Origin: Vigna angularis
Taxonomy: Eukaryota > Streptophyta > Magnoliopsida > Fabales > Fabaceae
Direction of reading: 5' to 3'
Assembly: GCF_016808095.1 (NCBI RefSeq)
Contig: NC_068979.1
Location: 21,721,444 to 21,785,443, forward strand
Length of the DNA: 64,000 nucleotides
Position 1 is the stretch's first letter, and every line of letters starts with the position of its first letter. Positions 1 to 46,775 of this stretch are shown here, one piece after another. The position numbers were made by a program, and so were the translations under genes. Below the pieces are notes generated by a model, which was not told the DNA's origin, searched no databases, and was given only the letters and a program-made list of their open reading frames with translations.

Positions 1-3000
1 TTCTTATCTAGATATATCTTTCCTTGTCCCTGACCCATTACAACCATGAAAAGACCTTTTGATTTGAACATGCGTATATGCTTGAGTATTGATATTAATT
101 CAGTAATATCAGGTATGTGGCCGTATATATCTTCCAAAAGAATTCTATGCATGCATGTGGCCGGGCTTATACCAGGTATGTCAGCCAAACTCCAACCAAT
201 TGCCTTCTTGTGCTTACTCAGTACACCAAGCAACTTCTCCTCTTGAACAGAATCAAGGGAGGTAGAAATGATCACCGGTTTCTTCTCATCATCCTCCAAG
301 TACATGTACTTGAGGTTATCAGGTAGTTGTTTCAGCTCAAGAGTGGGTGTCTGTAAGTCAGATTCAGGTGTACTACCTGCAACGTGGTTAATGCATTCTG
401 ACTCTAAAGAGTTCACAGGTAAAGGCAGAACACTCGTCTCATCACAATCTAAATCAATTTCCATCTCAGACATGTCAACACCATCATCAATATTATGCAT
501 GGCATCAGCATCCTGGTCATCACAATCCTCATCAAAATCCATAACATTATCAACATCATCCTCAAATTCTGATTCGAATCCAGATTCAATGCATGAATGC
601 AAAGAAGATAGAAAAGAATGCTTCTTCTCATGCTCAGAATGAAGGTCGTCAATGATAAATTCATCAATAATGTCATCCAATGTATCGACCCTAAACAGAG
701 AATGGTCCTCAGCTGGAAATTTCATTGCATCTAGGATATTAAAATGAACAACAATATCAACAAATTCCATAGACAAAGTTCCAGCATATACATCAATCTT
801 AGTTCGGGCAGTTTTCAAGAATGGCCTGCCTAAGATAATGGGAGCGGATCCATGAGAGAATCCCTCCTCCATTTCCAAAACGTAAAAGTCAGCAGGAAAA
901 ATTAATTCACCAACCCTAACTAAGACATCTTCTATGAAACCTGTCGGGTGGGTAACGCTTCTATTGGCCAACTGAATGACCACACCTGTGGTTTGCAAAG
1001 GACCTAGAGACAAAGATTTATATATGGACAAAGGCATGACATTAATCGAAGCACCCAAATCGAGCATGGCATTCTCAAACTTATTGTTTCCAATCACACA
1101 AGGAATACAAAATATCCCTGGGTCCTTGCACTTTTCAGGAATGTGTGGGACCGCTTTACCAATAAGTGCAGATACATTCCTTCCCATGCTAATCCTCTCA
1201 TTGCCCTTCATCTTCCTCTTGTGTGTGCACAACTCCTTCAAGAATTTGGCATATTTCGGTATCTGCTTGATGGCATCGAGTAGAGGTATGTTCACCTCTA
1301 CCTTCTTGAAGGTCTCCAAAATTTCCCTATCCACCTCTTCCATCTTTTTGCTAGGAAGGGCCCGTGAAGGGAATAGAAGAGGGACAGGTCGATCAATTAA
1401 TGGAGAAGATGCGGTAGCGGTGGTGGTGGAAAAGGAAGAAGATCCACCTGAAGAAGATCCTCCGGCTGGAGAAGAAGATCCACCCACCTCAAATGTCCTG
1501 CATGGACCATCGTGGTCGTCCTCTCTAGGACAAGTGGCAGGCACGGGTGTAGGTGTAGAAGCGGGCTCTGAAGGCACAACAATCTGCTTCCCTGATCTGA
1601 GGGTTATGGCACTTACATTCCTTGGATTCTGCACAGTTTGGGATGGTAACTTATCGGAATTCTGTGACTGTGCCTGGTTTATCTGAGTAGCCATCTGACC
1701 CATCTGGTTAGTGAGACTCTGTATGGAAGCTCTAGTCTCCTGCTGAAATTGCATGTTATCTTTTTGAAACTGCAGGTTTTGCATAGTCATCTGTCTCACT
1801 AGCTCTTCCAATGAAGGTTCAGACGAAGTGGAATGTTGAGCAGCTGGTTGGGCAGGTGCCTCTTGCTGCTGCTGTTGTTGTTGCCTCTGGTGTTGTTGCA
1901 TAGGTGGAGGCACATATCTGTTAGGTGCTCCAGCATTCAGGAAAGGTGTTGCCTGCTGTTGATGTTGTGGCGCATTGTTCCATCTAAGATTAGGGTGATT
2001 CATCCACCCTGGGTTGTACCTGTTGCTGGATAAGTCATGATTTTGTTGTTGTGGCTGCCTGTTGTTGTAGATGTTCGTAGCATAAGCCTGAGGTGTATCG
2101 TGAGAACTTGGTTGCTGTAGAGAAGGACAAACATCAGTGTGATGGTCACTAGAACAAATAGCACACACTCGTGCAACAGAAGTAGATGGAGGTGTCGATC
2201 TCTGACTGGATGCCAACTGTGTCACCAACTTCGCAAGAGAGTTAATCTGGCCTTCCAACTTGCTTTCAACAACCGATAAAGACTGGGCAACAACATCATG
2301 TACGCCCTTCACCACAATGGCATCATTTCTCACACTGAACTGTTGGGAGTTAGAAGCCATCTTTTTAATCAAATGCCTAGCTTCAGCAGGCGTCATGTCT
2401 CCAAGCGCTCCACCACTGGCAGCATCGATCATACTCCTCTCCATGTTGTTCAGTCCTTCATAGAAATACTGGAGAAGCAGTTGCTCGCTTATCTGATGGT
2501 GAGGGCAGCTTGCACAAAGTTTCTTGAATCTTTCCCAGTACTCATATAAGCTCTCCTCTCCAAACTATCTAATCCCAGATATATCTTTCCTGATCGCAGT
2601 TGTTCGGGATGCTGGAAAAAATTTCTCCAAGAATAACCTCTTTAGATCGTCCCAGCTGGTGATGGATCTAGGCGCCAAACAGTATAACCAATCCTTTGCT
2701 ACACCTTCTAGCGAATGCGGGAATGCCTTCAGAAAGATACTGTCTTCAGGAACATCATGAGGTTTCATTGATGAACAAACAATATGGAATTCCTTGAGAT
2801 GTTTATGTGGGCTTTCGCCTGCAAGGCCATGAAACTTTGGTAACAAATGGATTAGTCCAGTCTTGAGAACATATGGAACATCTTCATCTGGATACTGGAT
2901 GCACAAACTTTCGTAGGTGAAATCAGGTGCAGCCATTTCTCTAAGAGTCCTCTCGCGAGGTGGAGGTTGTGCCATATCGTTCTCAGTGTGAAAAATAACA

Positions 3001-3161
3001 GAATCAGAATCAGAATCAGTAGTCGGATGTTCCGTATCTACTGCAACTGGCTCGACAAATGACTCTAAAGATAAATTCCTAGAAATACTGGCTAACCTAT
3101 GAAACGTCCTTTCAATCTCAGGATCAAAGGGTGATATGGTTCCAGGATTGCTCCTAGTCAT
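1..3161 (-). pseudogene. Athila-like gag-protease frame with one in-frame amber, running off the window
   Basis: One reading frame starts at an ATG (3159-3161) and stays open to base 1, apart from a TAG at 2565-2567 inside the conserved gag segment, where related gags have a glutamine. The first 198 codons are a plant retrotransposon gag domain (PHKHLKEF, AFPHSLEGVAKDWLY). After the amber come EYWERFKKLCASCPHHQ, a CX2CX4HX4C zinc knuckle (CAICSSDHHTDVC, near 2125-2165), Gln- and Ser-rich linkers, and an aspartic protease region with DLGASINVMP (about 1030-1066). The frame reaches the start of reverse transcriptase (CMHRILLE, near 125-150). It then runs into about 97 bases that match the opposite strand of 6390-6485, so pol is lost or rearranged there. 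Gag should form the virus-like particle and the protease process it. The amber makes a full product unlikely. Family placement by PBS and gag type is good; activity is doubtful. Confidence 0.85.
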
Positions 3162-8420: not shown

Positions 8421-8625
8421 AAAATTCATTAGCATTTAGGTTGCACATTGAGGTTTCAAAATCCATATACTTGTACAAAAATGCAACACCTTGTTTCTTA
8501 ATTTCAAATTTTCAAACAAAAAGAAAAAAATCAATCAAAATAAAAATAAAATCAAAAAAAATCTCTCAAAATTTCAACAAATTCAAAATTTCATCTTTTC
8601 AAAACAATCAACCAATTTTTTTGTC
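8421..8625. other. A-rich linker between LTR A2 and satellite 1
   Basis: Short AT-rich sequence of aaaaatcaatcaaaataaaa type. No gene or recognisable LTR end. It probably belongs to the Tat 3' untranslated region. Confidence 0.4.
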
Positions 8626-9503
8626 ATTGGTATCTCGGCCCTCTGTAGGACAATGGTCGAGCCCAATTTTAATTTCTGTCATTGGTATCTCGGCCCTCTG
8701 TAAGACAATGGTCGAGCCCAATTTTGCTTTTTGTCATTGGTATCTCGGCCCTCTGTAAGACAATGGTCGAGCCCAATTTTGCTTTTTGCCATTGGTATCT
8801 CGGCCCTCTGTAAGACAATGGTCGAGCCCAATTTTAATTTCTGTCATTGGTATCTCGGCCCTCTGTAAGACAATGGTCGAGCCCAATTTTGCTTTTTGTC
8901 ATTGGTATCTCGGCCCTCTGTAAGACAATGGTCGAGCCCAATTTTACTTTCTTCTATTGGTATCTCGGCCCTCTGTAAGACAATGGTCGAGCCCAATTTT
9001 GCTTTTTGCCATTGGTATCTCGGCCCTCTGTAAGACAATGGTCGAGCCCAATTTTGCTTTTTGTCATTGGTATCTCGGCCCTCTGTAAGACAATGGTCGA
9101 GCCCAATTTTACTTTCTGCTATTGGTATCTCGGCCCTCTGTAAGACAATGGTCGAGCCCAATTTTGCTTTCTGTCATTGGTATCTCGGCCCTCTGTAAGA
9201 CAATGGTCGAGCCCAATTTTGCTTTCTGTCATTGGTGTCTCGGCCCTCTGTAAGACAATGGTCGAGCCCAATTTTAATTTCTGTCATTGGTATCTTGGCC
9301 CTCTGTAAGACAATGGTCGAGCCCAGTTTTACTTTCTGCCATTGGTATCTCGGCCCTCTGTAAGACAATGGTCGAGCCCAATTTTACTTTCTGTCATTGG
9401 TATCTCGGCCCTCTGTAAGACAATGGTCGAGCCCAATTTTGCTTTTTTTGCCATTGGTATCTCGGCCCTCTGTAAGACAATGGTCGAGCCCATTTTTACT
9501 TTT
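8626..9503 (+). repeat. Satellite 1: 55-bp tandem repeat, 16 copies
   Basis: The unit is attggtatctcggccctctg followed by taagacaatggtcgagccca and an attttgctttttgtc spacer. Copies start every 55 bp (8626, 8681, 8736 ... 9396, 9452) and differ mainly in the T-rich spacer. The two 105-aa and similar ORFs here are just the repeat read in frame. Known Ogre/Tat elements carry hypervariable satellites between pol and the polypurine tract, which fits the PPT and LTR found downstream. Confidence 0.95.
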
Positions 9504-9785
9504 TCAAACGACCCTCTGCATGGCAATGGTCAGGTACATATTTTTAATTTTTTCAAATGACCCTCTGCATGGCAATGGTCAAGTCAGATTTTACTCTTTC
9601 AAATGACCCTCTGCGTGGCAATGGTCAGGTACATATTTTTAATTTTTTCAAATGACCCTCTGCGTGGCAATGGTCAGGTACATATTTTTAATTTTTTCAA
9701 ATGACCCTCTGCATGGCAATGGTCAAGTCCAAATTTTAATTTTTTTCAAATGACCCTCTGCATGGCAATGGTCGAACCCAATCAA
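9504..9785 (+). repeat. Satellite 2: about 50-bp tandem repeat, 6 copies
   Basis: The unit is tcaaatgaccctctgcatgg, caatggtcaggtacat and a T/A spacer. It shares the frame CCCTCTG-N5-CAATGGTC with satellite 1, so the two are probably diverged from one unit. An A-homopolymer-rich stretch (about 9820-9950) follows. Confidence 0.9.
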
Positions 9786-9964: not shown

Positions 9965-10700
9965 TTGAAATCCGAACGAAATTAATATTTCTATCTTTAC
10001 TTATCTTTTACTCTGATAATATGAAAACATTGTTTATCATATGATCTAGTAAAATCTAAGTAAAGAGGAGATGCACTCAATTTCGTCCGGGTTGATTAAT
10101 AAATTTACTTTCATAAAAAAAAAAAGATTATTTCCTCGCTCACTGCATCTGCAGCATTGGTGGACCCTCCACAAGGTTGTCTCACTTCAATTCTCAGTTT
10201 TGTTTGTTTGTTTTGTTCTCTGTTTGTTTCTTGTTTATCTTGAAATCCAGACGAAATTAGTATTTCTATCTTTACTTAACTTTTACTCTGATAATATGAA
10301 AACTTTGTTTATCATATGATCTAGTAAAATCTAAGTAAAGAGGGGCAGCAGCTGTCAACACTCAATTTCGTCCGGGTTGATTAATAAATTTACTTTCATA
10401 AAAAAAAAAGATTATTTCCTCGCTCACTGCATCTGCAGCATTGGTGGACCCTCCACACGGTTGTCTCACTTCAATTCTCAGTTTTGTTTGTTTGTTTTAT
10501 TCTCTGTTTGTTTCTTGTTTATCTTGAAATCCAGACGAAATTAGTATTTCTATCTTTACTTAACTTTTACTCTGATAATATGAAAACTTTGTTTATCATA
10601 TGATCTAGTAAAATCTAAGTAAAGAGGGGCAGTTGTCAACACTCAATTTCGTCCGGGTTGATTAAATAAAATTTATTTTCATCAAAAGGAAAAATATAAG
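9965..10700 (+). repeat. Triplicated segment spanning the polypurine tract and LTR start
   Basis: Three copies start near 9965, 10241 and 10525 (period about 276-284 bp; the third is partial). Each holds tgaaatcc..acgaaatta, atcatatgatctagtaaaat, ctaagtaaagagg (polypurine tract) and then actcaatttcgtccgggttg, which is the first part of LTR B1. Copies 2 and 3 contain the complete TGTCAACACTC LTR terminus; copy 1 has a shortened version. Confidence 0.85.
10621..10632 (+). other. Polypurine tract of the family-B (Tat/Ogre-like) element
   Basis: aaagaggggcag lies directly before the TGTCAACACTC end of LTR B1. It would prime plus-strand DNA synthesis. Two further copies lie upstream in the triplicated segment. 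Confidence 0.7.
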
Positions 10701-13700
10701 AAAAAATACAAAAAAGGTATATAATAACAGAATTAAAAAAAAAAAAAAGAACGAAAGAAAACGTTCGTCCTCAACTGAGGGCGTTTGTCCTCTTTCGCAA
10801 AAAAGGACGGTCGTCCTCTATGACCTCGCGCTCGTCCAAACAGTGACCGTTCGTCCTTTTGCACTGTTCGACCGTTCGTCCTTTGCACTGTTTGACCGTT
10901 CGGCATTTCTGTTCTTTTAGGACGTTCGTCCTCATCTTCAACCGTTCGGTCATCCTCAAACGTTCACTTTTCGACCGTTCGGCCATTTGTTCATTTTGGA
11001 CGTTCGTCCTCGCCCTCAACTGTTCAACCTCTCATGTTTACCGTTCGGTCATTGTGTTTTTTAAGCGTTCGGTTATTTTGTTTATTAAACGTTCGGTTAT
11101 TTTGTGTAATAAGTGTTCGGTCTTTAAATTGAATGCTCGGTCTCCATGATATTTGTCTTCAGCGTTCGGTTATGAGCGTTCGGTCATGTTTATTCTTAGT
11201 GAACGTTCGGTCTTGAGAAAGTGTTCGTCCTCCATGCGCGTTCAGTTTATATTGTCTTATGAGCGTTCGGTCATCACTTGAATGCTCGGTTTCTCTTTTG
11301 AACGTTCGGTCTCCTCCAGCGTTCGTATTTCCTGCGTTTGGTTTTGAACGCTCGTCCTCGTTATTCTACCACTCGTCCTCGCTATCCTGGCGTTCGTCCA
11401 AATCACACCTGGCCTTTCTACCGCTCGTCCTGACCCTCACTTCAATCCTTCTGCCGTTCGTCCAAATCGTCCTTAGCCTTCTGCGACCGCTCGTCCTAAT
11501 CATTCCCGTCTTAGGCCGATCGTCCTGATCACCCGTGCTCCACTCACCACCACCAACAGCTTCCACCATCCCACTTCAAACTTCCACTACTGTTTCCCAT
11601 TATTCCCCACCTTAACAAACTTCCACTACTGTTTCCCACTCACCACCACCAACAGCTTCCACCATCCCACTTCCAATATTCCACCTCCACTTTCAACTTC
11701 CACCTCCACTTCCACTAATAATTCCACTTTCAACTTCCACCATTCCCACTAATTCCCACTGGATTCCCACCAAAAAGAAAATCTCCACTTTCAACATCTA
11801 CCGACATGGAGGTCTCTGCTCAAGGGAAAAGGGGGCTGATATTCATTTTTATCACCAACACTTACCATCAGGAAAAAAAAAGAGGGCCGGAATCATCATC
11901 CATTCCCAATAACCCAAATACTCCCACGGCTACTGGAATACATCTATCTTCAACCTATCCTTACCCTCCAATACCTCACGGCCAACACCCGTAACCCCAA
12001 CCATTTTTTCCTTTTTCACTCCCAACTCCAGTAACTACCCATCATCCATATCCACCACTGACCCCTCTCTGATCATTTTCATCCTTATATCACCATCAAC
12101 ACCAAATCCTTATAGAGGACCAACATACATCCTGGTTATTCCCACACAGCCAACAACTCACGGGGAGCCCCTTCATCTTCTCCATTTTCATCTCCAACAA
12201 CAAAACCACCTCCAACATCATTATTCCCACCTCTTAGACCCTTGATCACTCACCACACCTGGGAACGCCACCAAACCAGACTAAGGGCCAGGTTTTCATC
12301 ACTTCTTAGATGGATCCCCAACACCCACCGTGACCCAACCACCTCACTTTTCTTCCTCCATTTTCATCACCTCCAAAAACCCATCATCATTCATCCTCTG
12401 CTGCAACCAACACCTCACGACCACCACCCACTGCAGCACCGATACCTATCATCCTTACACCACCTCCTACATTTGATCATGATCCCTTCCCTCTTGGTTT
12501 TCACGGCTAAACACCCATCCTCCCATACACTACGACCATCATCATTCACACAGCCAACATGATCACCATCATCTACAATACGCTTGCAACACCTTATACT
12601 CGGCCACTACCAACACCTCACGGCCACCACCTATCCATCCTCCATATTCATAGACGACCAATATCATCATCTTCAAACCTGTCTTCACGGGTCAGCCACC
12701 AAAGCCACCCTCATCTCCATTCCAACATCCCTTTCTTCTTCATTTTCAACCCCAACATCCCAAACCCAATGCCACGATCAACTTTACCTCACGGCCAACC
12801 TCTATCATCACCTTGTTTTTCTGCATTTTGATCATCAAGTGTTAATGACTGTAGTCAACACCTCTGAGCATTTTCTCCACCTTCACACCTAATCATCAAT
12901 CTTCACCCTTACCTCACGGCCATTCCCCCATTTTTCATCATCTTAACATCATCTTCAACACCTCATGACCACAACCATTTTTCCTTTCTCACTACCAACT
13001 CTGTTATCTTCAACGCCGGTGATCATCTCCAAGACCCCGGGAACACCCGCACATCCATTCCCTCTTTGTTTATTTATCTGCATACACTCACTTTTTTATA
13101 ATGAACAAAAATCACAAAAATAAATAAATAAAATAAATATAATAATGAATTTGACAAAAATCAAAAAATATGTTTTAAAGGTTTAGGCACATGTGTGATC
13201 GCACGCATCGTCCTTGTGCCAAAAACCTTTTCTCTTTCTTCAAAAATACCAAAAAATATGTTTTAAAGGTTTAGGCACATGTGTGATCGCACGCATCGTC
13301 CTTGTGCCAAAAACCTTTTCTCTTTTCTCTTTCTTCAAAAATACCAAAAAAATATGTTTTAAAGGTTTAGGCACATGTGTGATCGCACGCATCGTCCTTG
13401 TGCCAAAAACCTTTTCTCTTTTCTCTTTCTTCAAAAATACCAAAAAATATGTTTTAAAGGTTTAGGCACATGTGTGATCGCACGCATCGTCCTTGTGCCA
13501 AAAACCTTTTCTCTTTCCTTAAAAATACCAAAGAATACGTTTTAAAGGTTTAGGCACATGTGTGATCGCATGCATCGTCCTTGTGCCAAAAACCTTTCCT
13601 CTTTCTTCAAAAATAACAAAAAAAAAATGAAAAAAATCTTCAAAAACTAAAAACATTCACCTTTTCAAAACAACAAACAATATCGCTGCTAGAACTACGT

Positions 13701-14228
13701 GATCCTTGATTCTCCATCAAAAGTGGAGATACGTAGGAGCAAGGCAAGTCCTTGTCAGGTTCACTCTCCCAAAAATCCAAATTCATTTCAAAACAAATTC
13801 TCAAACAATTTCTTAAACAAAATTTTCAAGCAGTTTCAGAATGAACTACGGAACCCTGATTTCTCATTCTGAATGAGAATACGTAGGAGCAAGGTCAATC
13901 CTTGTCGGGCCCAAAAAACTAAAAAATATTGTTTGTTTCTTTAGCGTTTTATTTTAAGGGGAAGTTAAATACTTTGAAAACCACATCCACATTCGCACAT
14001 TTAGTTAAAGGTACTGCCTTAGGGCAGGCGTTGTAGGGTGCTAATACCTTCCCTACACGTAACCGACTCCCGAACCAAGAATCTGGTTCAATTTGACCAT
14101 GCCTTATCATTTTATGGTTTTTCCGTAGATTTCCAGAATAAACTATGGTGGCGACTCCAAAATCTCTTTTTCAAACGATTCTCTTCTTTTATTTGGATTG
14201 TCGTCCCGTCGCGATTCCGGTTGCGACA
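10634..14228 (+). mobile_element. LTR B1, 3' LTR of a plus-strand Tat/Ogre-like element
   Basis: The LTR runs from TGTCAACACTCAATTTCG to CCGGTTGCGACA, 3595 bp. The same two ends, reversed, bound B2 at 25056-30034. Contents in order: scattered CGTTCGTCC/CGTTCGG motifs (10760-11530); a C-rich cttccacc/cctcacggcc region (11540-13080) with a His/Pro-rich ORF also present in B2; an 88-bp-class minisatellite (13171-13620); and paired gaactacg...acgtaggagcaagg segments (13690-13910). The right flank is gtaac followed by family-A internal sequence, so the element had inserted into a family-A element. Its left part is lost. Confidence 0.85.
13171..13620 (+). repeat. Five-copy minisatellite inside LTR B1
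   Basis: Each copy has tgttttaaaggtttaggcac, atgtgtgatcgcacgcatcg and tccttgtgccaaaaacc, then a pyrimidine/A spacer (period about 88-95 bp). LTR B2 has only one copy of this unit, and at the same place amplifies a different unit (25767-26030). Confidence 0.9.
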
Positions 14229-15420
14229 GTAACATAACCTCACATATGCACTAATAGTGTTTCTCTCAAGTGTTTAAGGTAAATAATTTGAACTCAATGT
14301 ACTCAAGAAAACAAACACAAGTAGACTTGGCAAGCTTCTAATATCAATACTTAAAACATATGCATGTTCATATCAAAAGGTCTTTACTGGGTTGTAATGG
14401 GGCCAAGGACAGGGGAGGATAAATTTGGATAAGTAGCTATAGCTCAGAAGAAATAGAGGTGCACTAGGGAAAAAAATGTAAACACAGTGAAATCTCACCC
14501 AAACCTCTAATTCAATGCTCTTCTCGACTCCATTATTCACAGAATTATTTTTCAATTTTTTTCTCTTTTTCTCATCAATTTTTTTTTTTATCCTGTCTCT
14601 TTTTTTTTTTTTACACAACAGGATATAAATTATCATTTCAAAACATGATGAGGAACCAACTAGCCAATTCATCAGAATTCCCAAGGAGACCACACTTATT
14701 CACAAAATACTTCTATAGCTCCAGACTTTCCTAAGGTTAAGGTAATAATTTGTTTTCCACTTAGGATCAGTGTATGAGCTTCAACACAAAGAAATATATA
14801 CAGTATAGGCTCAAAGGGGTTATCAAAGGATAATAACAAGGTAGGCTTATTTGGCTAAAGAGGCTCAAGAACAAAAATGCCTTTATCACGTCTGAACATG
14901 CATATCAATCAAGTATATCAAAAAGAATCAAGCCAAGGCATATGTGCAAGCATTCAAGATACATATCACACACAAGAAAGAAAATTAAGTGGCTCAAATC
15001 TCTCAAATCTCACACAGGGTATTCGTCACAATGAAATCAACCTCTCAAACGTATAATCATCTTCCCGGGCAGAGAAAAACAAGGATTACAATCTATAAGT
15101 ATTAAGTAAGTGAAGGAAAAATCTACAACTTAGACAAAATCCAGAAATCAGGAGAAAAATGTAAGATTTATTGCACACAAAACAACTTAAAACAGAAAAA
15201 ATTCACACGCAAAACAAAGAAAATTTAACACACAAAAAATTTAACACACAAAATACATACTAACAGAAACTAACAGAAAAATCAAAATTTCTCCCCAATA
15301 GACCACACTTAAATCACACAATGTCCTCAGTGTGCTACAATCATCAGATTATCAATTTCAAAGCAGTCAAATAATATAGACAAGTGTAATAAAAAGTAGG
15401 AAAAAATGGGAGAAATTTTT
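14229..15420 (-). mobile_element. 3' noncoding part of the non-autonomous family-A element
   Basis: 14225-14700 matches 6280-6760 (tgtttctctcaagtgt, agacttggcaagc, atgttcatatcaaaaggtct). Gaccacactta occurs near 14688 and 15301. No gene is visible; the 106-aa frame at 14373-14693 is T/A-rich noise. The stretch from 15301 to 15420 is the left member of a direct repeat pair with 17525-17650. Confidence 0.6.
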
Positions 15421-15612: not shown

Positions 15613-15620
15613 TATAAAAG
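15613..15620 (+). promoter_or_regulatory. TATA box of the antisense WOX-like gene
   Basis: tataaaag in the context ctggctataaaagggtacc. A pyrimidine-rich leader (tctctctctgctctcctctc) begins about 45 bases downstream, as expected for a plant 5' leader, and no ATG occurs before the 5' splice site at 15794. It reads away from the minus-strand gag. Confidence 0.65.
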
Positions 15621-15793
15621 GGTACCTCCTCAGCGTCAGAGCGCCATTTCCTGACCTAGCCTCTCTCTCTGCTCTCCTCTCTTCTCTCTCTGCTCTCTTC
15701 TCGAGCGTCTGGATCTGCGAGGAAGCTCTGTCACCGTGCCATCTGAAGAGTCCGAGATCAGCGAGGAGCTCCTCTGCCAGCCTACTACTCCAG

Positions 15794-16322
15794 GTAAGTT
15801 CTCTGCACCTTGGATCTCTATTTCTTCCTTTTCTGCTTCTCTGCTGTTATTACTATCCTGCTTTCCTGCTTTCCATTTTTTCTTCTCTTTTTCAATTTTT
15901 TTTTTAATTTTTCTGAAACTTAAAAACACTTAAACGCATAAAACACAACTGTAAAAAAAAGTAAGGGGTATATAGGCTGGAAACCAGACGTTAATCTCCC
16001 TTCGATTGAAGGTATTGCAGAGACAATCGGGTAGAACAACGCCACGTACCCCACTAAAAAAAAAATAAAACACAGAAACTTAATATACAAGAACAATATG
16101 GACAAGGACAACTGGACAACTGGACGTAGATCCGTTTAGGACCCTTTTGCAAGGACCGTGAAACAGATCTGAGACCAAATACAGAAACAATCAAAGACAG
16201 ACAGGACAAATAAATCTAAAAGGAAACAAGAACAAATAAAGAAAACACTCAACTAATAATCTAATTTATTTATGCTTTTTGCTTCTTTTTTTTTTTTATA
16301 TTATTTTTTTTTTATGTTTTAG
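15794..16322 (+). other. Predicted 5'UTR intron of the WOX-like gene
   Basis: The donor is CAG|GTAAGT, a perfect consensus. The acceptor is a T-rich tract ending TATGTTTTAG|AATACTAG, 18 bases before the ATG at 16341. Length 529 bp, AT-rich. Predicted by eye; needs RNA evidence. Confidence 0.55.
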
Positions 16323-16340
16323 AATACTAGTAGAGGAAAG

Positions 16341-16889
16341 ATGACGAGCGAGATGGAATCAGAGAGATACACCAGTCAGCGGTGGCGTCCTACCGAAGAT
16401 CAGACCCAGATGATGACCAGAATCTACAACTTTGGGGTCACACACCCAAGCCGAGCGCAAGTCGTCGAGATCACGTCTCGACTAAGGATCTTCGGAGATG
16501 CCAGCGAATACAACGTGCACTGCTGGTTCAACAACCACGGCAATCGGGTCAGGCGCTGGCAAGCGGAGATAGACCCCACTGGCACTCAGTTTTCACAACT
16601 GCCGCTATATATGTACGGTAAGACTCTGATCAAATCTCCATTTTTATTGATTTTTTTCCTTTCCTCTACAATTATTAACACAATTTTTTTTTTGTTGAAA
16701 GAATACGACTGGGTGATTATGAGAGCACCGAGGCTGCTGAATCTGTTTCCCGTTCCGATCATCATCGACGACGATAGGGACGAACGACAAATCCCTCCAC
16801 CCATGCTTCTCACATTCCGAACCAGAGCTCCCTCAACGGAGCTCTCCCTTAGGCCACCACAACCAGCTCGAGAATTCTTTCGATTTTAA
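16341..16889 (+). CDS. WUSCHEL-type homeobox protein gene carried antisense inside an Athila-like element
   Basis: The frame starts MTSEMESERYTSQRWRPTED and contains a WOX-like homeodomain at about residues 12-73: RWRPTEDQ at the N-terminus, PSRAQVVEITSRLRIFG in helices 1-2 including the WOX-type extra residues, and NVHCWFNNHGNRVRRW in recognition helix 3. The homeodomain hallmarks W48, F49, N51 and R53 are all present. The frame is open throughout, but 16618-16701 (84 bp, GTAAGA...GAAAG) looks like an in-frame intron. Removing it gives 154 residues instead of 182. The C-terminal part has RLLNLFPV, similar to the WUS box (TLxLFP), an acidic IIIDDDRDER run and ELSLRPP, similar to an EAR repression motif. 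Family knowledge says such proteins are nuclear DNA-binding regulators of stem cells. Here it has its own TATA box, 5'UTR intron and AATAAA, and lies opposite to a retrotransposon gag. It looks like a captured host gene. The homeodomain call is strong; expression is unknown. Confidence 0.75.
   Translation: MTSEMESERYTSQRWRPTEDQTQMMTRIYNFGVTHPSRAQVVEITSRLRIFGDASEYNVHCWFNNHGNRVRRWQAEIDPTGTQFSQLPLYMYGKTLIKSPFLLIFFLSSTIINTIFFLLKEYDWVIMRAPRLLNLFPVPIIIDDDRDERQIPPPMLLTFRTRAPSTELSLRPPQPAREFFRF
16618..16701 (+). other. Predicted coding intron of the WOX-like gene
   Basis: The donor is ACG|GTAAGA; the acceptor is a T-rich tract ending TTGTTGAAAG. The length of 84 bp is a multiple of three and contains no stop, so both spliced and unspliced forms can be translated. 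Its hydrophobic translation (SPFLLIFFLSS) is unlike the rest of the protein, which favours splicing. Confidence 0.6.
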
Positions 16890-17115
16890 TGTTTTGTATT
16901 TTTTTTTATGTTTTTTATGCTTTAATTCAGGTCTGTAATATGAACACTTATTTATTTTTTTATGTTTTTATGTTTTTTTTTTATTTTATTATTATTATTA
17001 ATGGTCTGTAATATTAACGATCAGAAATGATCGAACAACTTTATTTATGTTTTTATGTATTTTATTTTAATTATCAATGTAAGACAGAATGTTTTCTACG
17101 AATTTGGTAAGTTTC

Positions 17116-17121
17116 AATAAA
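17116..17121 (+). terminator. Polyadenylation signal after the WOX-like gene
   Basis: AATAAA in gtttcaataaatgcactc, about 230 bases after the stop codon, preceded by a T/TG-rich 3'UTR. With the TATA box it defines a unit of about 1.5 kb. Confidence 0.45.
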
Positions 17122-17656: not shown

Positions 17657-19066
17657 TTAGGGTGGCAGTTGCCAATTTTGGATTTGCAGGGATATGTTCT
17701 TCGCCTCAGGATCCAGCATGAAAGTGTTGAGGACGAACTGCTTCATCCTCCAGATCTGATCAAGCAGTGAAATGTCCTCCACTGCCGGATCTAAACCACA
17801 AATATTGTTACTGAGCGGATTCAGCAGGTGCCAGTTGATGTTGAAATCGTTCTGGGTGCTCGCACCTCTGTCTTCAATTGTGGGTGTCTGCTCATCAAGT
17901 TTATACGTACCTCCTGCAGTATGGTTAGTGCAAAATGGTTCCACAGAAATGTCATGCAGAGGTATAACACCCAATCCCAATTCATCATACTGAGCCTTAG
18001 ATACAACCTCATAACATGAATCAGTTTGAAAATTACATGCATTATCAATATCAGACTCAGATTCAGGTTCCGAGGGAGAATTAAACACATGCTCAGCAAC
18101 AATATGATTATCAGTAACATACCCGTCAACAGTATAATCATCAATATAATCAGATTGGGGTATGCTTACCTCCACTTCCTTTAGGATTGGTAAAGTAGTG
18201 GAAGATGAAATTGGTCTACCTGGGTCAGAATTACTGCTTATTCTTGCCTGGTCCTCATAATATTCAGCATTTTCCTCAAGTGCAAGAGTGGTCATCTGCC
18301 CGATCTGATCACTCAGATTCTGCATGGCAGCTTGAGTTTCCTGCTGGATCTTCATGCTCTCTTGCTTGAACTTGAGATTCTGCATGGTCATCTGCTCTAA
18401 TAACTCCTTCAATGTAGGTTCAGAAGTTGAAGGCTGAGGAGTTGTTTGGGCAGAAGCATTATACTGCTGACTCTGATATTGCTGGACTGGTGGAGGCATA
18501 AAGGTGCTCTGGAATGGTGGTTCTTGGTATTGATGTGGGGCATCGTACCATCCCAAGTTAGGGTCATTCCATCCAGGACCGTTGTTGTATCCATCTTGCC
18601 CAGGGGAAAATTTGCTCAGAAACTGAAGCTCAAGATATCCCCAATCGGTAACGGATCCTAGAGGAAGAGAATCTTGCCAATCCTTAGCTGCTCCGTGTAA
18701 TGAGTGTGGAAATGCCCTCAAGAAAATGTGATCAAGAGGGACATGTGGAGGCTTCATTGAAGAGCACATGTTGCGGAACTCCTCAAAATGTCTATGTGGG
18801 CATTCTCCGGTAATACCATGAAACTTAGGGAGTAGATATATCAGTCCAGTACTAAGAACACAATGAATATCATCCTTAGGTGGGACCGGCTCACGAGGAG
18901 CGCGCTCAGGAAATTGAGGATGATCATTATAATTTTCATCATAAAATTTAGCAGAATTAAAATCAGAGCAATATGCAGAATAAGAATCATATTCACAGAC
19001 ATTGGCAGAATAAGCAGTATTCACATAGCCAGAATAGATAGACATGAAAAAATAAAAAAAAAACAA
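17657..19066 (-). CDS. Shortened Athila-like gag of a non-autonomous element
   Basis: The open frame gives 469 residues; the likelier start is the second Met (about 19045, MSIYSGY). It has the gag core (LLPKFHGITGECPHRHFEEF, AFPHSLHGAAKDW) parallel to the gag at 2565-3161. At about residue 157 it then jumps to GQDGYNNGPGWNDPNLGW, so the middle of gag including the zinc knuckle is missing. A Gln-rich linker and a coiled-coil-like stretch (LLEQMTMQNLKFKQESMKI) follow, then an acidic tail with no protease motif. The tail replaces protease and pol. An uninterrupted 1.4-kb frame in this landscape suggests recent origin or selection for trans-mobilised packaging; both are inferences. The element would depend on an autonomous relative. 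Confidence 0.8.
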   Translation of the reverse strand: MFFFYFFMSIYSGYVNTAYSANVCEYDSYSAYCSDFNSAKFYDENYNDHPQFPERAPREPVPPKDDIHCVLSTGLIYLLPKFHGITGECPHRHFEEFRNMCSSMKPPHVPLDHIFLRAFPHSLHGAAKDWQDSLPLGSVTDWGYLELQFLSKFSPGQDGYNNGPGWNDPNLGWYDAPHQYQEPPFQSTFMPPPVQQYQSQQYNASAQTTPQPSTSEPTLKELLEQMTMQNLKFKQESMKIQQETQAAMQNLSDQIGQMTTLALEENAEYYEDQARISSNSDPGRPISSSTTLPILKEVEVSIPQSDYIDDYTVDGYVTDNHIVAEHVFNSPSEPESESDIDNACNFQTDSCYEVVSKAQYDELGLGVIPLHDISVEPFCTNHTAGGTYKLDEQTPTIEDRGASTQNDFNINWHLLNPLSNNICGLDPAVEDISLLDQIWRMKQFVLNTFMLDPEAKNISLQIQNWQLPP

Positions 19067-19419
19067 ATAAAAACTATATACTAAAAATTATAAAAGAAAT
19101 AAATCACAACACATTTGTACATGTTACACGCACACAAAAGATAGAACATAATTTTTTTTTAAAATTTTTTTTTAACAGACATAATACAAAACACAACACA
19201 ATAAAAATATAAAAGACAAAACATACATTACAACCACGTAATAAAACAAAAACAGTAAAAATCTAAAACAAGAACCTGGACTGAAGTGACAACGCCGCCA
19301 AAATTTGCTGAAGGTGTCGTTGTCGCCTACAAAAATATACAAGACAAAACACACAAAACAAACATATTAACAGAACAAAAATTTACACAACAAAAATCTA
19401 AAACCAAACCGTTATTGGT
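19067..19419 (-). other. Leader between primer site and gag
   Basis: A-rich untranslated sequence of the minus-strand element. It contains tgaaggtgtcgttgtcgcc near 19308, an echo of the family-A LTR end. No ORF of interest. Confidence 0.5.
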
Positions 19420-19436
19420 CCCCGGCAGCGGCGCCA
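19420..19436 (-). other. Primer-binding site, tRNA-Asp type, next to LTR A3
   Basis: Same 17 bases as at 3254 and 6769, with the aaatt spacer to the LTR end at 19442. Confidence 0.85.
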
Positions 19437-19441
19437 AAATT

Positions 19442-21879
19442 TGATACGGCTGTCGCGGTCATACAAATTTGATTGTACGAAATTAAATGCAGTATATCTA
19501 GGAAGTGACTCCTAGGTCGTCTCTCAAGGACCAATTTTGGTGGTTCAGTCTCAGATTTAACACGAAAGGGGGGATTGTTTGTGATTTTTGTTTTGCGGAA
19601 AATAAAATAAATTAGACTGGAAATTAAATAACACAAAATTTAAAACACTGAAATAAATTTAAAAGACAATAAAAACTGAACAATGAAAGACAGTAAAAAT
19701 GGAATAGTAATTATGCAAAAACGGTAAAAACATTGTAGTTAAAATTTACCAAAAGTATCCATAAAAATAAACGGTAAAAACAACGTCTGAAAATAAGATG
19801 ACCAGAAAAATACATTGACAGAATTTTAACGTTTTAGAAAATATTAAACGGTAAAAATAAAAGAGACAATAAAATTAAAATTACTGAACTGGAAATGAAA
19901 TTCACCCAAACTTTCAACACTTGAAAATGAAATTCTTGAACACGCAAAAATTAAATGAGCATGACAAACTTATACTGCTTGAGAAATAAAACTACATTTT
20001 TGCACTGATTGACATTGAAACTCAGAAAACAAAAAAGAAAGAGGAAGAGGCGAGCCTCTTCCATGGCTGTCCTAAACTATTCCTAAAACTCTACTCTAAA
20101 ATCTCTTCATCCACTTCTCTGGTGCTGCTGCCATATTTATAGCCACTTCTCTTCTGGACAAACTCCCGTGACTTCTCCATTTCGGCCCTTCGTTTGTGTG
20201 CCGTGTGCTTTTCTCTCCACCAAATAAATAAAACATTGTTTCATTTTGTCTCTTAGACGTACCAAAAATAAAGTGGGCCCCTAATCCTTGTCTTCTTCTT
20301 CAATCACGTTGCACACTATTCTAGCTCCTTCATCACGGCTGGTTCTCTTTTTGCTGCTGGACATGGAGATAGTTGGACTCCTCTTCCTTGCTGCTGGACC
20401 GTGAGCTGACTGTGAGCTTCTCAAGCTTGTGTGGAGTGGAAGAGAGTTGAAAATCTGCACATACACCTTTTATCATGTGGCTGGACAACAAGATAAATAA
20501 ATCCATCTTTGTGATGCTAGCCTCCTTCATCTTGGATGTAGTATGACGTGAAATCCTCACACATCCAGCCAGCACCGTTTCCTTCTTCAATCCAGCCCTT
20601 CTCTTGTTGAAAATTAAATTGTTCTATCTCCTTATGGCTGCTGCTGTCCGTGAAGACTCCTCTTCCAGCTTGCTTCTCTTCAACGCTGAACTTCTTCTTT
20701 GGACGTGAATCAGCTCACAATGCATCCAAGCTTGCTGCTACTTCCACAACGTCCAGCTTGTCTCTTCTCCTTGGTCTGGGTGGTTGCTGGAATACCATGA
20801 AGCTGCTGGATTGGGAAACTGGGAGAGGCGGCTGGAGCTTGAAGCTTGCTGGACTACACCCAAGCGCTGCTGCTTCTGCTTCTTGCCATGACCGTGGCTG
20901 CTTCTGGATGTGGCTGCGTGAAGTTTGCTGCATCAGTTGTGGCAGAACTTCCTTGCTTGCTTCTTACTTCTTCACGGTGCAGCTCTCATTGTTTGCTGTG
21001 ACAGGATGTGCACCGTTCCAGCTCCAAAATAATTCATGCGGTGTTCTTTTTTTCTTCCAACAAATTGATTCAGCCAGCACTTTTTTTTTTTTTGGTAGAT
21101 ACCGTAACATTTCAAATGTAAATTGCTTTCAATTCTCAAAGCAAAATAAACATCACGTGCAAACACTTATGCCAAAAAGAATTTCCCATAGGCCCATGAC
21201 AAAGTGGTATGGCTGTGAACTTTATTTACGTGGCCCCTATGCTTGGTTGCATTTTGGATCCATGAACATTAGCTTTCAAAGTGGTAGCCCCCTCATTCCA
21301 TCAAGCACGGCTTACATAGTCTAAAAAGAATTCTCCAATCTCCCATTTAATTCCAACACCTGTGCATGCTATATAAAACAAAAACCGTGTGGTGTGTGTT
21401 GTTTCTAAGGCAATTGTGAAATGAGTGACAAAATGGGATATAATGTATTTTCTCCCAACAAAACCGTGAGATCCACTAGGTGGTGGTCCCCAATTCTATT
21501 CTACAATTTTCTTATGCTTTCACGTGAATGTGCTACCAAGTGGACCATGACACCACTTTCCTCTTTCTCCACCTAAATGAAAGCTTTCACGTAGACTTTT
21601 AATTCCAATTCATCCTTTGCTGGCTTGCCAAAATGAACGAGTAAAATAACATGTACAAATAAATTTCCTTTCAAATGTCCTAAAATAATTTCTAAATTTT
21701 TCCTGTACTTAATAATGTAAATAATTAGTCTTAGAAAATTCAAATTAATTAAAATAAGAATTTCTAATCGAATTAAGCACAATTATTAAAAACAGGAAAA
21801 TACGGGACAATTAAGCACAATTCCTTGACTAATTCTAGCACAATACGCTAAGTGTAGTGAACAAAATATTGACTCATCA
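19442..21879 (-). mobile_element. LTR A3, 5' LTR of the non-autonomous WOX-carrying element
   Basis: The plus strand runs from TGATACGGCTGTCGCGGTC to TGACTCATCA, 2438 bp. Minus-strand promoter signals are visible: catatttatagcc at 20132-20144 reads GGCTATAAATATG on the minus strand, and a 9-bp hairpin follows at 20043-20062. The U3 part (about 20170-21340) is rich in ttgctgg and ccgtga phrases and parallels 36290-37650 of the solo LTR. The 224-aa frame at 20650 is an accident of that region. The right flank starts aacct. Confidence 0.85.
20043..20062 (-). promoter_or_regulatory. Conserved 9-bp hairpin downstream of the LTR TATA box
   Basis: GGAAGAGGC-GA-GCCTCTTCC. The solo LTR has the same stem with a GAGA loop at 36159-36180, in the same place relative to the TATA box. 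It would lie near the 5' end of the element RNA. Confidence 0.6.
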
Positions 21880-25053: not shown

Positions 25054-25766
25054 TCTGTCGCAACCGGAATCGCGACGGGACGATGATCCAATAAAAGAAG
25101 AATAAAGAATATTAATTTTGAAAAAAGAGATTTTGGAGTCGCCACCATAGTTTATTCTGGAAAACTACGGAAAAACCATAAAATGATAAGGCATGGTCAA
25201 ATTGAACCAGATTCTTGGTTCGGGAGTCGGTTACGTGTAGGGAAGGTATTAGCACCCTACAACGCCTGCCCTAAGGCAGTACCTTTAACTAAATGTGCGA
25301 ACGTGGATGTGGTTTTCAAAGTATTTAACTTCCCCTTAAAATAAAACGCTAAAGAAAACAAACAATATTTTTTAGCTTTTTGGGCCCGACAAGGATTGAC
25401 CTTGCTCCTACGTATTCTCATGTGAGAAATCAGGGTTACGTAGTTCTTTTAGAAACTATTTGAGAAACTTGTTTGAAAATTTGTTTGAGAATTTGTTGGG
25501 AAAAATGATTTGGATTTTTGGGAGAGTGAGCCTGACAAGGACTGGCCTTGCTCCTACGTATCTCCACTTTTTGATGGAGAATCAAGGATCACGTAGTTCT
25601 ACAAGGCGATATTGTTCGTAGTTTTGAAAAAGTAGATGTTTTTAGTTTTTGAAGATTTTTTTATGTTTTTGGTATTTTTATTGTTTAGGAGAAGAGGTTT
25701 TTAGCACAAGGACGATGCGTGCGATCACACATGTGCCTAAACCTTTAAAACATATTTTTTTGCGTA

Positions 25767-26030
25767 ATGAGTACTAGGCTGATGCGTACGATCGCACGAG
25801 TACTCACACGGCTTTTTTTCCTTTTATTGTTTTGCGTAATGAGTACTAGGCTGATGCGTACGATCGCACGAGCACTCACACGGCTTTTTATTTCTTTTGA
25901 TTTGCGTAATGAGTACTAGGCTGATGCGTACGATCGCACGAGCACTTACACGGCTTTTTATTTATTTTATATTTGGGCAATAAGTACTAGGCTGATGCAT
26001 ACGATCGCACGAGTACTCATACCGAGATTT
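25767..26030. repeat. Four-copy minisatellite inside LTR B2
   Basis: Unit of about 70 bp: gcgtaatgagtactaggctg, atgcgtacgatcgcacgag, actcacacggc and a T-rich spacer. It shares only the CGATCGCAC-type core with the B1 minisatellite. Confidence 0.85.
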
Positions 26031-28699
26031 ATTACATTAAATGTTTTTTAAAGTTTTATATATTTTTTATTATTTTTCATTTTTTTTCCTTTTTTTTTGA
26101 AATAAAACGAAATGAACAAATTCACTAAAACAAAGGGGTGTGGGATATCTTACAAGGGGTTACATCAGTAAAAACTAATAACCAAACAATTAATAAAAAT
26201 AAAGAAACAAAAGCCTAAAAATAAAACAAGAGAAACAAATCAGCGATGTAGAGATAGGAGATAGAACCAGGAGTGACGTGTGAAATTGATGCTCCTTTGT
26301 TTGGGCCAAAATCCCCTCTTTTGTCTTTGTATCCGCCAGGGGTGTCAAGATGAAATTGGGGGGTGCATTGAGTGTACGCTTGTGAGGTCCAGTTCCCTTT
26401 ATTTTTGTTTGGAGAAAACACATGGGCTCGAGCCCTAACAGAATGGAAGTATGAAAATTGTGTGTGCCAGAAAGGGGATGCGGTCCGCAGCCTTTATTCC
26501 CGATTCAGAAAACCCAGGGGTCCCTCCAAGTTCAATTCATTTGTATCAGCATTCCATCTTCTCCTCTGAACGAGAGACCCTAGAGACAACTACCTATGCC
26601 AACCACGTTCCAGCTGCTGCGGGAAGATCCTCTACCTCGTCTGAAGCTTTGCGGGCGACGTCAAGCGCTACCAGGACCGTTGCCGGCGATGTCGCTCACG
26701 CCCGTCGGAGCAGTTCTGGCCACCGCCTTCTCCAAGCAGACCGCCGCAAGTTGCTTCTGATCTCTCTCCCTCTCTTCTGTTCTCGCGTGATGGGTGTCGA
26801 AAGTGGTGAAAGGATCATCTAAGAGTTGTAGTCCATGAACCCTTGGAGGAGCTCGATCTCATCCTTGTCGATCCACAGCCGCTGGAACAGTCACGCGAGT
26901 CATCTAGTGGAGGCTTCTTTTCCGCGACTTGTTCTAGGTGTTGCCACTTCGAAATGGAGGAGTCACCGATGACGATAGTGGTGGCGGCGGCTGCTGATGG
27001 TGATTTGGGGATGGGTTGTTTGGTTGTGCTGTGGTTAGTTTATGGGTGATGGTGTGAGAGGTTTTTGGAGATGATTGATGAATAGGGGTTTTCGGAATTA
27101 ACAAAGAATGGAGAGGGATTGGGTGAAGGCTATTCGGTGAGTGGTGAGTTTCCCTCTTGGCTTGGGTAATTGAAAAATGGTAAGAATGGGTGATATGGTG
27201 ACGGGAAATGTAGTGGAGGTAATGAGTGGGTTTGGAAAGAGATGAATGATGGATGTTCTCGTTATAAGGTGTTGGAGGTAAAACCATGGAAATATGGTTG
27301 GGATGTTACGGATGAGAGGGAGCCAGGTTTATGAAAAGGGAAGGGATGAAGATGAAGATTGATGGATGTTGGCCGTGTGAAGTTCAATGGGGATGAAGAT
27401 CGAGTGTTGGAGGTGAATAAAGAGGAAAAGTCAGAGGTTGGAAAAAAAATGAGAGAGTTTGATGAAGATGATCGCTTGGGGTTCAGTATTGAAGGTGGTA
27501 ATGCTGAAGGTGATATGAAGATGATGGCTGTATGGCCGTGGGGTAGGTGTTTAGAGATAAAAATGAAGATGAAAAAGGGTGAAGATGAAGGTGATGATAT
27601 TGGCCGTCTGTGAATATGGAGGATGGATAGGTGAGGATAGGTGGTGGCCGTGAGGTGTTGGTAGTGGCCGAGTATAAGGTGTTGCAAGCGTATTGTAGAT
27701 GATGGTGATCATGTTGGCTGTGTGAATGATGATGGTCGTAGTGTATGGGAGGATGGGTGTTTAGCCGTGAAAACCAAGAGGGAAGGGATCATGATCAAAT
27801 GTAGGAGGTGGTGTAAGGATGATAGGTACCGGTGCTGCAGTGGGTGGCGGCCGTGAGGTGTTGGTTGGAGCAGAGGATGAATGATGATGGGTTTTTGGAG
27901 GTGATGAAAATGGAGGAAGAAAAGTGAGGTGGTTGGGTCACGATGGGTGTTGGGGATCCATCTCAGAAGTGATGAAAAACTGGCCCTTAGTCTGGTTTGG
28001 TGGCGTTCCCAGGTGTGGTGAGTGATCAAGGGTCTAAGAGGTGGGAATAATGATGCTGGAGGTGGTTTTGTTGTTGGAGATGAAAATGGAGAAGATGAAG
28101 GGGCTCCCCGTGAGTTGTTGGCTGTGTGGGAATAACCAGGATGTATGTTGGTCGTCTATAAGGATTTGGTGTTGATGGTGATATAAGGATGAAAATGATC
28201 AGAGAGGGGTCAGTGGTGGATATGGATGATGGGCAGTTACTAGTAGCATGTGGGTGTAAGGATGAAGAGATGGATTATGGTTGAAGGTAGAGGTATTCCA
28301 GTAGCCGTAGGGGTGTTTGGGTTATTGGGAATGGATGATGATTCTGGCCCCCTTTTTTTTTCTGATGGTAAGTGTTGGTGATGAAAAATGAAGATCAGCC
28401 CCCCTTCAGTAGATGTTGAAAGTGCAGATTTTGGTGGGAATCAAGTGGGAATCATTAGTGGGAATCCGTGGGATGGTGGAAGTTGTTACGGTGGTGGTGA
28501 GTGGAGCACTCAGTGGAAGGTTGGTTGGTGGGAATTAGTGGGAAACAGTAGTGGAAGTTTGTTAAGGTGGTGGTGAGTGCAGCACTCATTGAAGTAGGAG
28601 GTTGGTGATGGTGGGGAATAGTGGGAAACAGTAGTGGAGGTTTGTTAAGGTGGTGGTGAGTGCAGCACTGGAGGTTGGTGATGGTGGAAGCTGTTACGA

Positions 28700-29880
28700 T
28701 GGTCAGGACGAGCGGTAGGGGGGGAAATTATGGACGAGCGGTAGAAAGGCCAGGATTTGGACGAGCGTCAGAATAGGCAGGAACGATCTGGACGAACGTC
28801 TCAACACACTGTTTGCCGAACGCCCTAAAAGTCAGTAAGAACGACCGTCCAAATAAGGGCAAAGTACGAATGGTGGACGACGAACGTTCGAATGAAAAGC
28901 GAACGTTCAAATGAAGACCCAACATTTATTACACAAAATAACCGAACGTTTAATAAACAAAATAACCGAACGCTTAATAAACACAATGACCGAACGGTAA
29001 ACATGAGAGGTTGAACAGTTGAGGGCGAGGACGAACGTCCAAAATGAACAAATGGCCGAACGGTCGAATAGTGAACGTTTGAGGATAACCGAACGGTTGA
29101 AGATGAGGACGAACGTCCTAAAAGAACCGAAATGCCGAACGGTCAAACAGTGCAAAGGACGAATGGTCGAACAATGCAAAAGGATGGAACCGAACGTTCG
29201 CAGTGGAGCTTTAAGCAACAGTGGGGAAGGACGAACGATTACTGTTTGGACGGGCGGCCACAGTAACAGTGGGGGAGGACGAACGGTTTCAGCAACAGTG
29301 GGGAGAACCGAACGGGCACTGTTTGGACGAGCGGCCACAGCAATAGTGGGGAAGGACGAACGGTTTCAGCAACAGTGGGAGAACCGAACGGTCACTGTTT
29401 GGACGAGCGGCATAGCAACAGTGGGGAAGGACGAACGTCACAACAGTGGGGAAGGACGAACGGTTGAACAACAAAAGGGAAGGACGAACGGTCACTGTGG
29501 TCACTGTTTGGACAAACGGCCACAGCAACAATGGGGAAGGACGAACGGTTGAACAACAGTAGGGAAGGACGAACGGTCACTGTGGTCACTGTTTGGACGA
29601 GCGGCCACAGCAACAATGGGCAAGGACGAACGGTTGAACAACAGTGGGGAAGGACGAACGGTTGAACAACAGTAGGGAAGGACGAACGGTCACTGTGGTC
29701 ACTGTTTGGACGAGCGGCCACAGCAACAGTGGGGAAGGACGAACGTCACAACAGTGGGGAAGGACGAACGGTCACTGTGGTCACTGTTTGGACGAGCGGC
29801 CACAGCAACAATGGGGAAGGACGAACGGTCACTCTTCGGACGAACGGCCTCAGCAACAGTGGGAAAAGGACGAACGCTCA
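28700..29880. repeat. GACGAACGG / GACGAGCGG array in LTR B2
   Basis: Irregular copies of aaggacgaacggtcactg, tttggacgagcggccacag and caacagtggggaaggacga, with higher-order units of about 55-60 bp from 29200 on. B1 has the corresponding motifs (10760-11530) without the regular array. Several 80-177-aa frames here are repeat translations. Confidence 0.85.
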
Positions 29881-30034
29881 CTGTTTTATTTATTTATTAT
29901 TATTATTAAAAAAAATTTCTTTATTTATATACATTTTTTTTAATCGAATTTTTTTTTTCAATTTTTTCTTTTTACGAGGAGAATACAATAAAACAAAATT
30001 ATTTAGTCAATCCGGACGAAATTGAGTGTTGACA

Positions 30035-46371: not shown

Positions 46372-46775
46372 TCGGTTTCGAAATGAGCGTTCGTCCTAAT
46401 AGTGCTCGGTTTCGAAATGAGCGCTCGTCCTAATAGTGCTCGGTATCACACTGAGCGGTCGTCCTAATAGTGCTCGGTCTCCAACTGAGCGTTCGTCCTA
46501 ATAGTGCTCGGTATCACACTGAGCGGTCGTCCTAATAGTGCTCGGTCTCCAACTGAGCGTTCGTCCTAATAGTGCTCGGTATCACACTGAGCGGTCGTCC
46601 TAATAGTGCTCGGTCTCCAACTGAGCGCTCGTCCTAATAGTGCTCGGTATCACACTGAGCGGTCGTCCTAATAGTGCTCGGTCTCCAACTGAGCGTTCGT
46701 CCTAATAGTGCTCGGTATCACACTGAGCGGTCGTCCTAATAGTGCTCGGTTTTGAAATGAGCGTTCGTCCTAAAT
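46372..46775 (+). repeat. 34-bp tandem repeat in the E3 3' LTR, 12 copies
   Basis: Same unit as at 40677, four more copies. Confidence 0.9.

Follow-up and report, generated by a model that had tools for sequence, protein, structure and literature searches.

The closest described systems are the aORF-3R genes of plant Ty3 elements, among them gene23 of maize Grande and those of rice RIRE2 and Silene Retand, in which an antisense gene lies between pol and the 3' LTR and is present in many copies (PMC7264820). The Grande antisense gene has a promoter of its own from which it is transcribed, and it encodes a nuclear protein; no aORF-3R product is described in that source as having clear similarity to other proteins, and the origin and function of plant Ty3 antisense ORFs are described there as open (PMC7264820). 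A 2025 survey of Retand elements reported TRP28 and five other domains, and the words 'homeobox' and 'homeodomain' are absent from its main text; HBZ is named in the survey (PMC11963269). Orchid Ty3 elements carry an m6A demethylase ORF, a case of a host-like domain that was acquired and kept through subfamilies (PMC9289625). The orchid ORF encodes an RNA-modifying enzyme, whereas the gene described here, from adzuki (Vigna angularis), is predicted to be an antisense, intron-bearing transcription factor gene. Like the aORF-3R genes it is antisense and occurs in many copies, but its product is a recognisable WOX protein and its coding sequence is interrupted. HBZ of HTLV-1, a human retrovirus, is a spliced antisense gene encoding a bZIP protein that acts as a nuclear DNA-binding regulator; HBZ and, by prediction, the adzuki gene are both spliced antisense genes for DNA-binding regulators, and no common descent is claimed. 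No WOX gene within a retrotransposon was found among the top-ranked titles and abstract openings of a literature search that had most subscription journals outside its scope.

The window, by which we mean the whole stretch of 64 000 nucleotides that was analysed (V. angularis C10:21721444-21785443), contains at 15613-17121(+) a predicted gene with two introns that lies antisense to the element around it; its product is a WOX-type protein of 154 aa that combines a homeodomain with WUS-box-like and EAR-like motifs. A preliminary description of this DNA had proposed a WOX gene carried antisense and spread by a retrotransposon, and the profile hit, the many copies, the position opposite gag and the low dN/dS reported below all uphold that proposal. 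On re-reading, the TATA box, intron 1, intron 2 and AATAAA were found exactly where they had been placed. No WOX match was seen in the window besides this gene, the features of which are given below.

15613-15620, + strand: TATAAAAG, TATA box of the antisense WOX gene; 24 of the 30 other loci read TATA(A/T)A here
15640-15793, + strand: predicted exon 1, 5' untranslated, with its start guessed from the TATA box; donor GTAAG in 30 of 30 other loci
15794-16322, + strand: predicted intron 1, in the 5' UTR, 529 nt, GTAAGT..TTAG
16341-16617, + strand: coding part of exon 2, including the homeodomain; mean identity 94.8% over 30 other loci
16377-16553, + strand: homeodomain, residues 13-71, from the PF00046 match and alignments with WUS and STENOFOLIA
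16618-16701, + strand: predicted intron 2, 84 nt, GTAAGA..AAG; length varies among copies, exon frames mostly open
16702-16889, + strand: coding part of exon 3, TAA at its end; mean identity 91.3% over 30 other loci
16731-16757, + strand: WUS-box-like motif RLLNLFPVP, seven residues invariant in 19 proteins
16839-16853, + strand: EAR-like motif ELSLR, conserved in 19 proteins
17116-17121, + strand: AATAAA, a possible polyadenylation signal read from the sequence

The frame at 16341-16889(+) scored 27.6 bits against the Pfam Homeodomain profile (PF00046), above the cut-off of 22.9. In the PDB just two entries matched at E<=1, the WOX proteins STENOFOLIA (E 8e-11) and WUSCHEL (E 3e-10). The Pfam score and the PDB matches together identify a WOX-type homeodomain, and the identity first proposed from motifs thus passed a profile search. 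NCBIfam gave no match for the three WOX proteins tried, and the structure model of the protein was poor (mean pLDDT 48). A database search with the spliced 154-aa product, a check that had been suggested at the outset, returned 60 relatives among 65 candidates, all 60 of them named V. angularis; the closest was a V. angularis protein that is likewise 154 aa long and 95% identical over its full length, which supports intron 2. Among 19 aligned proteins P102, R103, L104, L107, F108, P109 and P111 were invariant in the WUS-box-like region, as were L140 and R143 in the EAR-like motif, with E139 and L142 nearly so.

The likeness to WUSCHEL, STENOFOLIA/WOX1 and WOX2 covers the homeodomain, a WUS-box-like motif and the EAR-like tail. 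The WUS box of the modern clade is TLxLFPxx, the T of which is changed in the window copy, while most rows of families 3 and 4 of the carried gene read TLDLFPIP (the window copy belongs to family 1); in its wider context the motif of families 3 and 4 is mostly VTLDLFPIPP, close to the ETLDLFPIHP of WOX2-like proteins. In contrast to plant WUS-clade WOX proteins, with which homeodomain identity is only 31-44%, the adzuki protein has an altered helix 3 and its gene is carried by mobile elements. Compared with WUS and STENOFOLIA, family 1 shows Y to C at homeodomain position 47, Q to N at position 50 and A to N at position 54, with N51 kept; we take 47, 50 and 54 to be the main base-contacting positions. 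The unusual helix 3 (WFNNHGNR) that was remarked on in the preliminary description proved to be nearly fixed: in 29 aligned family proteins the C, N51 and GNR were invariant and N50 was near-fixed, with Q in the two family-2 rows. The rewritten helix likely reflects an altered choice of DNA held under constraint, and with its many copies the gene offers a series in which a developmental regulator appears to have had its DNA-reading helix rewritten under selection.

Conservation of the gene was assessed over two sets of loci. The first consisted of 38 records representing 33 distinct loci (five were re-fetched), picked by protein score; with intron 2 removed, all 38 records were open for 150-154 codons to the stop, donor 2 was GTAAG in all but L010 (AT for GT), and an ATG stood at the window's position in 20 of the 33 loci, one codon later in 12 and at neither place in L032. 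The second set consisted of 20 places from the Pfam list that were absent from the first list, 17 of them belonging to family 1. In these 17 copies intron 2 was 80-119 nt long and had the form GTAAG..AG throughout, its length was divisible by three in none of them, and after splicing 15 were full length (149-152 codons, one without ATG); the two broken copies were L057, with a stop, and L069, with a shifted frame. Translation through intron 2 was entertained, 30 of the 33 first-set introns being multiples of three, and was rejected because family 1 of the second set shows the reverse and several of the first-set introns hold stops. The multiple-of-three pattern of the first set is best explained as an artefact of the frame-based search. 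Splicing of two introns is a prediction from the reading frames.

When 30 other loci were compared with the window, donor 2 was kept as GTAAG in 29 and a simple acceptor-1 pattern was matched in 24; together with the counts for donor 1 and the TATA box given above, conservation on this scale excludes a chance origin of the TATA and donor signals. The conserved TATA box points to a putative promoter belonging to the WOX gene itself. Mean identity over the same loci was 0.95 and 0.91 in the two coding exons, and 0.60-0.84 in the untranslated exon and the introns taken as wholes. One block of intron 1, 16120-16260(+), stood at ∼0.9 over the 30 loci, nearly the coding level, and is a possible regulatory element.

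The element that carries the window copy is read from the opposite strand, and the parts recognised in it are as follows.

19442-21879, - strand: 5' LTR of the window copy, TGATGA...GTATCA, 2438 bp; its edges match L041x and other copies, its middle diverges
19418-19436, - strand: primer-binding site TGGCGCCGCTGCCGGGGAC, five bases past the LTR, with the same motif in L041x and L045x
17657-19066, - strand: gag frame of the element, 469 aa; weak match to Pfam Retrotrans_gag (17.6 bits, cut-off 24.1)

The primer-site motif, which presumably resembles tRNA-Asp, was found as TGGCGCCGCTGCCGGGGA behind the 5' LTR of both L041x and L045x, and relatives of the gag that bear the Retrotrans_gag domain were found in V. 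angularis, Coffea and others. The window copy is an incomplete element, in which the 5' LTR, primer-binding site and gag are present and the 3' LTR is missing; homology to other copies ends at 14228-14230, ahead of the 3' LTR. A long inverted pair (10001-14229 and 25055-30035, main blocks 83-95%) flanks the WOX element, and the window copy is cut where this pair begins, at the sequence TGTCGCAACCGG. A repeat starting TGTCGCAACC was also present at L096:7423 and L093:8983.

Complete relatives were found elsewhere in the genome. In L041x, LTRs of 2389 bp (99.8% identical, with four mismatches and one gap) and a target site duplication of TTAGC enclose gag and an antisense WOX gene, the latter lying between gag and the 3' LTR, and no pol was seen. 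L044 has LTRs of 2795 bp with one mismatch and a duplication of GAAAA around a family-1 WOX gene; its LTR family differs from that of the window (TGTAAGG...TTACA, primer site TGGTATCAGAGC) and no match to the window-type gag was found in it. The LTR of L045x is at least 3452 bp long, with one mismatch and one gap, and its 5' end lies beyond the region examined. With 7e-9 to 1.3e-8 substitutions per site and year, the age of these three insertions comes to approximately 10,000-120,000 years. Apart from gag, no sense frame of more than 124 codons occurs inside L041x or L045x, and neither an Athila pol nor an env-like gene was found in them. The carrier had been called a gag-only, Athila-like element: as to gag this applies to the window copy, L041x and L045x, but other copies of the WOX gene adjoin pol and one sits in a different LTR family. 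The repeats of L043 were set aside as evidence for LTRs, being mosaic, and the repeat pair around L093 was set aside as lacking a target duplication.

Several further repeats were observed in the window. At 35570-38108(-) a solo LTR (TGATGAATC...CGTACCA) shares the LTR type of the WOX-carrying copy and has a 5-bp target duplication, GCAGA; a related gag of 44-49% identity lies at 1686-3014(-); and tandem arrays with 55-bp and 34-bp periods occupy 8453-9577, 40549-41052 and 46236-46875. A search inside the window for a close autonomous partner gave only 25-42% matches to the pol pieces of L093.

The WOX gene is present in at least 150 places in the genome, as judged by the best 150 of 1006 candidates in the spliced-protein search (298 exon-piece matches), so that the other copies anticipated in the preliminary description do exist. 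Matches at 141 of these places were without a stop and nine held one, four of the nine extending past residue 93 into the intron; among the matches listed the copies were scattered over contigs C1-C11. In two cases, L026/L027 (C1, 8.2 kb apart) and L029/L030 (C6, 8.3 kb apart), copies whose WOX coding sequences are identical are spaced by about one element length, as in tandem elements sharing an LTR.

The gag search gave at least 91 scored places (of 3231 candidates). Among the matches listed, all 19 gag/WOX pairs closer than 5 kb were on opposite strands, tail to tail, where 0.3 pairs were expected; a WOX gene was near 19 of the 91 gag places. Annotated assemblies show the association too, with adjacent locus tags for a WOX gene and a gag in three cases (01g146700/146800, Vig0174230/0174240 and 03g102400/102300). 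In L093 and L094, which carry divergent WOX genes of family 4, the gene lies ∼550-580 bp behind sense pol frames. The pol of these two loci, which are collinear over 6.1 kb at 87.7%, encodes reverse transcriptase, two RNase H domains (RT_RNaseH and RVT_3) and an integrase zinc-binding domain, with the integrase core found in L093 and the pol of L094 split into several pieces. A second RNase H domain in pol distinguishes the Tat lineage of Ty3 elements; L093 and L094 possess it, and the other 10 copies on the pol side match the integrase piece of L093 only.

A genome search with the integrase piece of L093 gave 113 scored matches of 5843 candidates, of which 101 were used for pairing after 12 at about 40% identity had been dropped; the WOX side comprised the 150 listed places and 51 further rows of the Pfam list whose score and span were taken to indicate a WOX gene, a judgement that was only partly checked. 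Among the matches listed, 13 of 13 integrase/WOX pairs closer than 5 kb were on opposite strands, against 0.45 expected, and they involved 12 distinct WOX copies, nine of family 1 and three of family 4, L093 and L094 included. The gene lies near integrase as well as near gag, and so belongs to pol-carrying and to gag-only elements. Among the matches listed a WOX gene was near 13 of the 101 pol rows, and many gag- or pol-bearing elements may be without it. The gene has the arrangement of an aORF, lying between LTRs (by the LTR pairs and target duplications of L041x and L044), antisense to gag and pol by the strand counts, and in many copies.

Helix 3 separates the families of carried genes, reading WFNNHGNR in family 1, WFQNHGNR in family 2, mostly WFQNYGYR in family 3, and in family 4 WFQN(H/Y)GYR, except for one of the five rows, which has WFQNREYR. 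The TLDLFPIP box is mostly kept in families 3 and 4, and family 4 has a basic run after helix 3. In a tree of 33 homeodomains (69 columns) families 1-4 formed a single clade (support 95/98) apart from the sampled host WOX9/11-like genes, WUS, STENOFOLIA and WOX2-like proteins, in a part of the tree where long branches meet, as flagged by the program. The carried WOX gene was probably captured once, to judge by this tree. Over 346 bp the promoter and exon-1 region of family 1 showed a 73% match to the family-4 copy L094, suggesting a common origin for promoter and coding sequence; no match to this region was found in L093. The occurrence of the gene in pol-carrying, gag-only and L044-type elements points to exchange between elements. 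A protein profile search gave 88 hits (7990 candidates scored), consisting of V. angularis proteins, one from V. radiata, two from V. umbellata, a V. mungo fragment and ten non-Vigna homeodomain proteins, several of which are named WOX2-like.

Comparison of dN and dS among the copies, which had also been suggested, gave a low ratio of about 0.15 in both sets. For the 31 distinct coding sequences of the first set the median pairwise dN/dS (NG86) was 0.149 and the maximum no higher than 0.48 (457 of 465 pairs, restricted to dS values of 0.05-1), and for the second set the median was 0.155 (118 of 120 pairs) at a mean dS of 0.39; both sets were chosen by similarity (protein or Pfam score), which biases dN downwards, and the second set reduces this bias only partly. 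A codon model with the ratio set to 1 was worse by 126 log units, a figure that came with no omega value and is used as a supporting value only. Copies should decay neutrally after insertion, and the signal of selection would therefore come from the lineages that kept transposing.

Taken together, these data make it likely that LTR retrotransposons of Asian Vigna have acquired a host WOX gene as an accessory gene, retained for the help that its DNA-binding repressor gives the element, in the way that antisense HBZ is of service to HTLV-1. An ordinary host WOX family, enlarged by host duplication and with retrotransposons nearby by chance, would account for the annotation of several copies as WUSCHEL-related homeobox genes, and an expansion of the WOX family is reported in V. 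reflexo-pilosa (PMC10357499); such an origin is nevertheless very improbable given that in L041x and L044 near-identical LTRs and target duplications enclose the gene, that gag or pol lies opposite at a similar distance in 31 WOX copies (19 + 12), far above chance, and that the copies are scattered over the contigs. A host gene beside a neighbouring element is refuted for the copies that have LTR pairs and target duplications.

Captured sequences are frequent in plant LTR elements (PMC13317346), and a WOX gene taken up once and copied as a neutral passenger with everything else would be intact in recent insertions regardless. A dN/dS near 0.15 where the mean dS is 0.39 argues against this, as does the retention of splice donors while intron lengths vary; overall conservation is also higher in the coding exons than in the untranslated exon or either intron, despite blocks at ∼0.9 within intron 1, and we consider a passenger with an inert protein unlikely. 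The antisense transcription unit might matter rather than the protein, by forming double-stranded RNA or interfering with gag-pol and so limiting copy number, as is suggested for antisense ORFs in general (PMC7264820). Conservation of the TATA box and of the donor of the untranslated exon would fit such a role. A reading frame would be dispensable for it, however, and conservation of both the frame and the WOX motifs makes this explanation distinctly unlikely.

Under the reading that the protein helps its element, a WUSCHEL-clade WOX gene would have been captured antisense together with its promoter, a 5'-UTR intron and a coding intron, and would owe its spread to pol-carrying Ty3 elements and to relatives that are gag-only or poor in coding sequence. 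The introns had been taken to mean capture at the DNA level. This does not follow, because introns would survive retrotransposition when their splice sites face opposite to the genomic RNA and are invisible as that RNA is spliced, and an antisense read-through RNA would be another possible source. The element would insert by its own pol or that of a partner, a step supported by the LTRs and target duplications. The antisense TATA promoter would then fire, with transcription directed towards gag-pol, and removal of the two introns predicted from the frames would yield a small nuclear homeodomain protein. By homology the protein would bind DNA at its targets and recruit corepressors through the WUS-box-like and EAR-like motifs, acting as a repressor. 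The most likely outcome would be an action in trans that favours the element, by repression of host genes or control of element transcription, a benefit to which the low dN/dS points.

A bolder form of this proposal would make the gene a counterpart of viral oncogenes, a retargeted WUSCHEL-type repressor that in meristem or germ line pushes cells to a stem-cell or germ-line-competent state favouring transposition and inheritance. We regard this form as rather unlikely; were it true, selection on the copies would act on the manipulation of host development. More generally, a developmental regulator akin to WUSCHEL, the switch of plant stem cells, may have been borrowed and put to use by the elements. 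The adzuki antisense ORF clearly stems from a host gene, and its molecular activity is open to testing. Where annotation shows the WOX family expanded in Asian Vigna, for example in V. reflexo-pilosa (PMC10357499), the additional members may be transposon genes. The database entries P0047, P0148, P0149, P0153, P0159 and P0161 are named WUSCHEL-related homeobox 2, 4, 4-like, 5-like, 7-like or 8-like, and if element-borne, such WOX-named entries can mislead gene-family studies.
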